Assembly (NCBI RefSeq): GCF_004801295.1 | Contig: NZ_SSOC01000005.1 | Span: 62,001 to 126,000, forward strand | DNA length: 64,000 nucleotides | Direction: 5' to 3' | DNA from: Pseudothauera nasutitermitis | GTDB taxonomy: Bacteria > Pseudomonadota > Gammaproteobacteria > Burkholderiales > Rhodocyclaceae | In this document: piece after piece, positions 13,704-17,877 of the stretch | How the letters are laid out: each line of letters starts with the position of its first letter | How positions within the stretch are numbered: the first letter of the stretch is position 1 | Program-made: the position numbers and the translations under genes | Notes under the pieces: model-generated | What the model was told of the DNA's origin: nothing | The model's input: the letters and a program-made list of their open reading frames with translations, nothing else | Database searches by the model: none

Positions 13704-13831
13704 TGACCACGGGCCAAAGCGCAAACCTCGCCCTTCAGGGCGAGATCAAGCGAGGCAAACCCACCCTGGCGCCGAAGGCGCCCCCATTTCGTGGCGAGGA
13801 ATCTCCCGCCTTCAGGCGGGAGTGACTCACA
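13704..13831 (+). mobile_element. Structured repeat copy A (IS200/IS605-end/PATE-like, no ORF)
   Basis: Copy A shares its left border TGACCACGGG, a central GGCGAGGAA and its right border GACTCACA with copy B at 17754-17877. Between them lie three hairpins: CTCGCCC-TTCA-GGGCGAG, GGCGCC-GAA-GGCGCC and CTCCCGCC-TTCA-GGCGGGAG. The outer CCACG...CGTGG can close a multibranch stem. Stem sequences differ from copy B but pairing is kept. The right part resembles the ends of IS200/IS605-family elements, which in TnpB systems encode the guide RNA scaffold; that relation is inference. No tnpA or tnpB is nearby. Confidence 0.65.
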
Positions 13832-16901: not shown

Positions 16902-17756
16902 ATGATCGAATTCCTTCACCAGCCGCTCGCCTTCACCGTGCTGGCGGCCCTTCTCGGCCTGTTCGTCGGCAGCTTCCTCAACGTCGTCATCCATCGCCTG
17001 CCGCGCATGATGGAACGCGAATGGCAGGCCCAGGCCGCCGAGCTGCGCGGCGAGGACGCCCCCGCCGCCTCCGAGCGCTTCAATCTCGCCACGCCGCGTT
17101 CGCGCTGCCCGCACTGCGGGCACCTGATCGGCGCGCTGGAAAACATCCCGGTGGCCAGCTATTTGCTGCAGCGCGGGCGCTGCCGGCACTGCCAGGCACC
17201 GATCGGCCGGCGCTACCCGGTCGTCGAACTGCTCAGTTCGGTGCTTTCGGGCTATGCCGCCTGGCACTTCGGTTTCGGCCTCGCGGCGGCCGGCGCCCTG
17301 CTGTTCCTGTGGGCAATGATCGCGCTGGCCTTCATCGACCTGGACACCCAGCTGCTGCCCGACGACATCACCCTGCCGCTGCTCTGGCTGGGCTTGGCGT
17401 TCAACCTGTCCGGCACGTTCACCAGTCTGCCCAGCGCGGTGATCGGCGCAATGGCGGGCTACCTGGCGCTATGGTCGGTGTACTGGCTGTTCAAGCTGCT
17501 CACCGGCAAGGAAGGCATGGGTTACGGCGACTTCAAGCTGCTCGCCGCCATCGGCGCATGGCTGGGCTGGCAACAGCTGCCGCTGACCATCCTGTTCTCC
17601 TCGCTGGTCGGCGCCGTGATCGGCATCGCGCTGATCGTCTTCGCCCGCCACGGACGCGGCACACCGATTCCCTTCGGGCCCTATCTGGCGGCGGCCGGCG
17701 TGCTCGCGCTGTTCTGGGGCGAATCGATCACCCGCTTCTACCTCGGCAGCTTCTGA
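16902..17756 (+). CDS. pilD: Prepilin peptidase/N-methyltransferase PilD
   Basis: PilD cleaves the prepilin leader and methylates the new N-terminus. The 284-residue membrane protein has an N-terminal segment with the FVGSFLNVVIHRLP motif, a cytoplasmic tetracysteine zinc domain (CPHCG near residue 69 and CRHC about 24 residues on), and the two catalytic aspartates in FIDLDTQLLPD and GYGDFKLLA. Its TGA stop coincides with the first bases of structured repeat copy B. Confidence 0.96.
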   Translation: MIEFLHQPLAFTVLAALLGLFVGSFLNVVIHRLPRMMEREWQAQAAELRGEDAPAASERFNLATPRSRCPHCGHLIGALENIPVASYLLQRGRCRHCQAPIGRRYPVVELLSSVLSGYAAWHFGFGLAAAGALLFLWAMIALAFIDLDTQLLPDDITLPLLWLGLAFNLSGTFTSLPSAVIGAMAGYLALWSVYWLFKLLTGKEGMGYGDFKLLAAIGAWLGWQQLPLTILFSSLVGAVIGIALIVFARHGRGTPIPFGPYLAAAGVLALFWGESITRFYLGSF

Positions 17757-17877
17757 CCACGGGTCGCGTGCAAGCCCCGCCATGCATGGCGGGGCAGCGA
17801 GACCAGCGTACCTGGAGCCGAAGGCTCCACAAGCCCGTGGCGAGGAAACCCCAGCCTTCAGGCTGGGGGGACTCACA
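17754..17877 (+). mobile_element. Structured repeat copy B, overlapping the pilD stop
   Basis: Copy B begins TGACCACGGG and ends GACTCACA like copy A. Its hairpins are a 22-bp perfect palindrome (17773-17794, arms GCCCCGCCATG and CATGGCGGGGC), GGAGCC-GAA-GGCTCC, and CCCCAGCC-TTCA-GGCTGGGG. The stem changes relative to copy A are compensated on the other arm, for example C-G to A-T in hairpin 2. CCACGGG and CCCGTGG can close the outer stem. The first three bases are the pilD TGA. Confidence 0.65.

Follow-up and report, generated by a model that had tools for sequence, protein, structure and literature searches.

A folded palindromic element inserted 3' of TGA, with a left end resembling that of IS200/IS605 transposons

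Two structured repeats of roughly 120 bp in the window (the whole 64,000-nucleotide stretch of Pseudothauera nasutitermitis DNA analysed here) raise the question of what has preserved their fold and, if they are mobile, what could move them. The preliminary description took them for a pair with the same borders and loops, selected as a folded RNA or DNA, and linked their right end to IS200/IS605 elements, whose transcripts guide TnpB nucleases.

Copies A and B and their family

Copy A is a 123-bp element, CCACGG...GACTCA, at 13707-13829 of the + strand, with a GAC CAC... frame that is open end to end. It is preceded by its target TGA (13704-13706, +) and followed by C, a site rule derived from the empty sites of other copies and from reading frame. 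The borders first given to it, 13704 and 13831, have to be moved inwards, as both the TGA target and the two flanking bases at 13830-13831 lie outside the element. Copy B, 119 bp long, lies at 17757-17875 (+), as delimited by sequence, model match and empty-site alignment, directly after its target TGA (17754-17756, +), with which the prepilin peptidase gene at 16902-17756 terminates. The copies are identical in 91 of 125 alignment columns. Both repeats had been located correctly, but their loops are not all the same: that of hairpin H1 reads TTCA in A and TGCA in B.

Covariation and folding place three hairpins in copy A, all on the + strand: H1, the left-end palindrome (13727-13744); H2, with a GAA triloop (13768-13782); and H3, the right-end palindrome, with a TTCA loop (13803-13822). 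The 5' terminal CCACG (13707-13711, +) forms a closing stem, P1, with CGTGG at 13790-13794, a helix that is 93.2% paired over 111 matches. GAG (13796-13798, +) has its pairing partner, CTC, close to the right end at 13826-13828; this nearly invariant pairing (99.4% of cells paired) is a putative guide pairing, and by inspection GCAA beside H1 could likewise pair with TG. The element has near-terminal palindromes, H1 and H3, and by inspection its ends, CCACGG and GACTCA, form no terminal inverted repeats.

The family is much larger than the two repeats first noticed. The Pseudothauera genome (4.72 Mb, 20 contigs) contains 14 covariance-model matches at E <= 2e-5, three further weak matches being excluded from this count; ten of the 14 score at least 87 bits, the remaining four being partial or decayed copies, and BLAST finds 8. 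The search of related genomes with such a model, proposed in the preliminary description, found further copies in abundance. Model matches occur in seven of 100 relatives, of which three belong to the same genus, and one of the seven (G057) carries a different repeat of similar plan. That repeat, with ten matches (L032, L036, L037, L040-L045), consists of a CATTCATG hairpin, a second hairpin, a CCTTCAGG hairpin and then an inverted hairpin. The right-end pattern GTGGCGAGGAAGC-N(18-22)-GACTCA occurs in 110 stretches from a collection of 84,980 species genomes, at least five of which look by eye like chance (L142, L144, L175, L184, L189). Judged by record title for the 80 of 110 stretches listed, carriers are mostly Betaproteobacteria, and they include Paracandidimonas soli, Verticiella sediminum, Rhodocyclales, Casimicrobiaceae and termite-gut MAGs. 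A MAG labelled Desulfobulbus (L086 and other WQUQ contigs) has 27 matches to this otherwise mostly betaproteobacterial family. At E <= 0.001 the 21 carriers studied (the Pseudothauera genome and 20 others) have from 1 to 115 model matches per genome, seven having at least 45 each, counts that may contain a few antisense double matches (alignment A3 retains such rows, as well as weak ones). The exact right-end pattern is absent from IMG/VR, a search of phages by BLAST with one query copy gave no match, and two query copies found a single plasmid match, of 36 bp, in Halomarina. No paper on the family was found in the open-licence literature, as judged from titles and abstract openings.

Element length ranges from 96 to 186 bp in the 96 of 115 copies that could be parsed, and is mostly 119-126 bp. 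Two copies of 185-186 bp (L099:6539-6729 and L170:7805-7996) have about four extra GAA-loop hairpins between H1 and H2, and in a copy from Alcaligenaceae CAII-56 (L132:927-1077; 72 matches and no Y1 match in this genome) the H1 palindrome is much longer.

Fold and covariation

The comparison of copies A and B bears out the paired stem changes reported before, T-A to C-G and C-G to A-T in H3 and C-G to A-T in H2, and adds two compensated pairs in H1 (T-A to C-G, C-G to A-T). We aligned 111 matches from 100 of the 110 stretches. Mutual information, calculated on 103 rows, recovers H1, H2 and H3, and an additional helix connects columns 11-13 with columns 50-52, its pair 12-51 being U-A 43 times, C-G 30 times and G-C 12 times. 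In the 40-pair structure, 90.5% of cells in the 111 rows are paired, against 78.9% in shuffles, in an alignment fitted to a model that contains H1-H3 and GAG/CTC and therefore favours these, the outer helix and P1 both being outside that model. Double-change cells number 538 against 175 in shuffles (111 rows), the covariation score is 0.324 against 0.135, and none of 500 shuffles reaches the observed value in any of five pairing measures. When partners are slid by 1-3 columns only 35-45% of cells are paired, and an extension of H2 is weak (53.5% paired). These results support the earlier proposal that selection acts on a folded single strand.

Energy calculations place the stability of the fold above chance. 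As RNA, the + strand folds with z-scores of -4.2 (A) and -5.1 (B), none of 200 shuffles being equally stable, and the - strand with -2.4 (A) and -4.8 (B); with DNA parameters the + strand gives -2.9 (A) and -4.9 (B). The top-strand RNA fold of copy A spans from the first base to the last but one, and the entire top strand folds as P1-(P2/H1)-H2 and H3, a fold that compensatory changes preserve. In 100 rows of the top strand there are 100 G.U pairs and 38 A.C mispairs, an excess that suggests selection on the top strand.

This strandedness, the agreement of copy A's RNA minimum-energy fold with the covariation structure along its length, and the presence of tandem G.A or A.A positions and of a GNA triloop are what one would expect of a mobile or retained structured RNA, in which a top-strand transcript would be functional, as a regulator or a reverse-transcribed mover, and the DNA hairpins would mirror the RNA. 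However, G.T is tolerated in single-stranded DNA too, so that the strandedness also fits a top-strand DNA substrate. In addition, an Rfam scan of the window and eight loci produced no match on any element (it detected one 5S rRNA, in the flank of L086), a promoter or terminator pattern was not found near copy A, and orientation with respect to genes varies, one copy of the same genome (L018) being antisense in tkt. We regard a functional RNA as an unlikely explanation of the family.

Insertion site and insertions inside genes

The boundaries of the element are set by genomes that lack it. In five of five congeners no element follows the prepilin peptidase gene at the site of copy B; the gene terminates in TGA in four of them and in TAA in one. 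For copy A a single congener was aligned, and it lacks the element, in a spacer of poor alignment. A copy between dnaK and dnaJ (L014) is absent in four of four genomes aligned, whose empty sites read CATGAATTCAG (two) or CATGAATCAG (two). Since no C follows TGA in any of them, both C's must be part of the element. The sites of L016 (in four genomes) and L013 (in one) are also empty, with junctions that align poorly, and the empty sites of copy B and L014 show no target duplication. In the copy inside a CopA gene (L111), T follows GACTCA, and only ATT GA|T (GA|T GGA CAT) restores the reading expected from the homologue 3rfu. The L014 empty sites and the CopA frame together define the element as CCACGG...GACTCA and place its insertion 3' of TGA, most often at TGA|C, the target not being duplicated.

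The base at +1 of the right flank is C in 93% of the copies scored, a sample of 103 of 116 rows from which those without GACCA near the start were dropped, making GAC at columns 3-5 partly a product of construction. In 41 of 103 copies the target TGA closes the longest upstream open frame (at least 80 codons), compared with 466 of 5,460 TGAC sites (8.5%) in the carrier stretches L086-L195, counting sites with at least 600 bases upstream. Copies are interspersed, many on the stop codons of genes and some in frame inside them. Mobility is supported by the 14 matches in the Pseudothauera genome and by the empty sites of copy B and L014. By local GC skew, a weak, low-power test, the insertion strand shows no replication bias (52 of 103 copies); IS608 and ISDra2 are reported to target the lagging-strand template (PMC6006769).

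Of 96 parsed copies, 74 read through without a stop in the GAC CAC... frame, compared with about 52% of dinucleotide shuffles, and the other two frames are open in 26 and 51 of the 96. Length is divisible by three in 70 of the 96, where 19 of 115 copies went unparsed and copies from the same genome are not independent. As copies on stop codons have these properties as well (frame open in 30 of 37, length divisible by three in 29 of 37), the open frame and the length rule may be inherited, without selection inside genes. Of 18 copies in the GAC frame 16 are open. Protein families, or the same site in another genome, lend support to eight of the 18, which amount to six insertion events; L104, where PMT_2 overlaps the insert start, and L121, of 118 bp, were left out of the six. 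In TerC (L113) a single Pfam stretch crosses the insert, and the same insertion is found in L139. The CopA insert (L111) has homologue residues 184-500 and 496-733 on either side, and that in Uma2 (L120) residues 4-123 and 125-177. The AMP-binding_C profile match (L156) resumes at position 28 directly after the insert, the sigma-54 activator insert (L173; same flank in L115) falls between the AAA lid and the Fis domain, and the CheA insert (L103) between the Hpt and dimerisation domains. In these frames the in-gene copies would be translated as a protein insert. A copy of the Pseudothauera genome near the 5' end of the transketolase gene tkt, antisense to it (L018:1484-1602; G000 C7 ~130324-130442), sits in an open frame after a plausible ATG.

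One could also see in the family a mobile, protein-coding betaproteobacterial palindrome that spreads without any Y1 transposase. A host enzyme or some other one would then move its conserved 120-nt fold, as RNA or as a single strand, and the body would be kept readable in one frame for genes to take up. We consider this quite unlikely.

Kinship, movement and known systems

Kinship to IS200/IS605 transposons appears at the left end. This end has a 36-bp BLAST match (91.7%; model E 2.3e-6) directly before the tnpA of a Halomarina tnpA-tnpB element, whose matching end reads CTGAC...GAGCGCAAGCCTCGCCCTTCAGGGCGGGGTCAAGCGG, and model matches lie at the outer end of tnpB-bearing betaproteobacterial elements in three of 16 tnpA/tnpB loci searched (L215, E 1.4e-4; L214, 0.0023; L055, 8.3e-5). 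Weak matches at two other tnpA loci, L051 (0.0045, right-end half) and L046 (0.26), were excluded as support. The right end, to which the resemblance had originally been attributed, reads GAGGAAGC-hairpin-GTGACTCA and that of betaproteobacterial IS605 elements GTAGGAATC-hairpin-GAGGATGTCAA, alike in layout only. No partner with both ends was found among the tnpA/tnpB loci compared. The matches support a left-end relationship to IS200/IS605, whereas the right ends of these elements differ.

Several configurations around tnpB and IscB genes were also seen. Whole or partial family copies are close to two tnpB genes (L211, L214). An IscB-type gene of Paracandidimonas soli (L277) is bordered on either side by similar hairpins, inverted in orientation, and 728 bp ahead of the gene a family copy occupies the TGA stop of a neighbouring frame. 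In the left ends of betaproteobacterial IS605 elements (L046, L055, L214), by eye, those with TTAC have AAAG ahead of the hairpin and those with TTGAC have GCAAG, so that guide and target look as if they had changed together.

The candidate enzymes have an uneven distribution. The observation that no tnpA or tnpB is near the repeats extends to the entire Pseudothauera genome, which has no PF01797 or PF07282 match at E <= 0.001 and in which profile search found no Y1 transposase (PF01797), TnpB or IscB. Among the 20 other carriers, eight have a Y1 match and 12 have none, and TnpB is matched in three; an IscB domain was found in one of the 21. There is no PF01797 match in G103, G115, G109, G106 and G102, with 75, 72, 45, 91 and 45 model matches, some of these genomes being MAGs that may be incomplete. 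Eight tnpA/tnpB queries gave no tblastn match at E <= 1e-4 in any of the 110 stretches, each of 3-8 kb, that carry the canonical right end.

Insertion 3' of a fixed short motif is also the rule at TAM-type sites, and together with the tnpB-like layout of the right end it would suit a gene for a TnpB or IscB guide RNA (omega RNA) acting in trans, a role to which the preliminary description alluded. The lack of Y1, TnpB and IscB matches in the Pseudothauera genome leaves a TnpB guide role unsupported, the few carriers with TnpB or IscB and the lack of any Rfam match on the elements weigh further against it, and we hold it to be extremely improbable. In copy number, intergenic bias and position 3' of genes the family is typical of REPs as these are described (PMC3733652), and its palindromes could owe their maintenance to a domesticated REP-associated tyrosine transposase (RAYT). 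Some relatives have RAYT-size Y1 genes, and in one carrier a copy (L209; G118 C2 110733-114089) lies about 1.1 kb from such a gene, on one side only and with another reading frame between. Nevertheless, a RAYT gene flanked by the repeat was not found among the Y1 loci of relatives and carriers: ten Y1 stretches from nine relatives have no adjoining family element (strong matches in L082 belong to the G057 repeat), 11 of 12 carrier Y1 stretches lack a strong match, and a Y1 match is missing in 13 of 21 carriers, the Pseudothauera genome among them. Alignment inspection shows no GTAG or CGTC tag, and two unlike palindromes in direct orientation over about 120 bp differ from units of 20-40 bp. 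Maintenance by a RAYT is therefore very unlikely.

We favour, with a probability of roughly 60%, a transposase-less element of the PATE kind, a relative of IS200/IS605 moved by Y1-driven single-strand transposition, whose behaviour is also that of Rickettsia's protein-coding palindromes. In this reading a Y1 (HUH) transposase acting in trans would recognise H1 and H3 on single-stranded DNA, with cuts behind TGA at the left end and behind GACTCA at the right end, and the excised circle would be pasted 3' of a TGA. The source enzyme could have been lost in most of the carriers examined, or be so far unmatched to them. Insertions would be tolerated because they land either on stop codons or within Asp codons (GA|C), and because the GAC CAC body is often free of stops and often of a length divisible by three; an in-gene copy would then add some 40 residues (D-H-...-T-H) to the protein, in the manner of Rickettsia palindromic elements. 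Several observations stand against this reading: the carriers without a Y1 match, the negative tblastn search, a right end unlike that of the IS605 relatives, the lack of strand bias in the weak test, and an open frame and length rule that hold for copies on stop codons too. In addition, the inner stems show more conservation than would be required of a derivative that kept just the ends. That several high-copy genomes have no Y1 match could also indicate that a serine recombinase, host enzymes or a HUH protein other than Y1 moves the element, but the hairpin ends, the site rule and the left-end similarity fit Y1, and we find such a mover rather improbable. Carriers without Y1 recall, by analogy, the puzzle of Haloquadratum, in which PATEs move where transposases are broken, strain-specific insertions having been reported despite broken IS200-type transposases (PMC3119063).

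The family unites palindromic elements related to IS200/IS605 with in-frame gene palindromes, best known from Rickettsia. Whether 40-residue inserts are tolerated or useful can be tested on the copies in CopA, TerC, a sigma-54 activator and an adenylation domain, and the many copies in cultured strains where no Y1 match was found open the mode of movement to direct testing.

A mobile palindrome without a transposase is an ordinary kind of element; what is unusual is that a fold conserved over the whole length is combined with a TGA site rule biased towards stop codons and with copies residing in frame within genes. Like the PATEs of Haloquadratum and Halanaerobium, as their accounts present them (PMC3119063, PMC7290912), the element has near-terminal palindromes, no terminal inverted repeats and no target duplication, and is too short to encode a transposase. 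Unlike them, it is folded and conserved across genera over its whole body and inserts in frame in genes, and no parent matching both ends was found. With the IS200/IS605 group (IS608, ISDra2, L046/L055/L067/L215) it shares a left-end hairpin with a GCAAGCC-like foot and insertion 3' of a short fixed sequence, IS608 being described as preferring C at +1 (PMC5934647), whereas it lacks tnpA and tnpB, has TGA as its target and ends in GTGACTCA instead of GATGTCAA. The GTAG/CGTC REPs, which are described as occurring also in Thauera (PMC3733652), are likewise present in high copy, 3' of genes and sometimes within ORFs, but are single 20-40 bp palindromes with a tag, and not units of about 120 bp with two unlike palindromes. 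Finally, Rickettsia palindromic elements are described as palindromes of about 150 bp, all with an open frame, that have inserted into unrelated genes without disturbing the reading (PMC10969869), and the six events reported here are in-frame insertions in unrelated protein genes too. The likeness lies in the manner of insertion; in contrast, many copies of the present family sit on stop codons and follow a TGA site.
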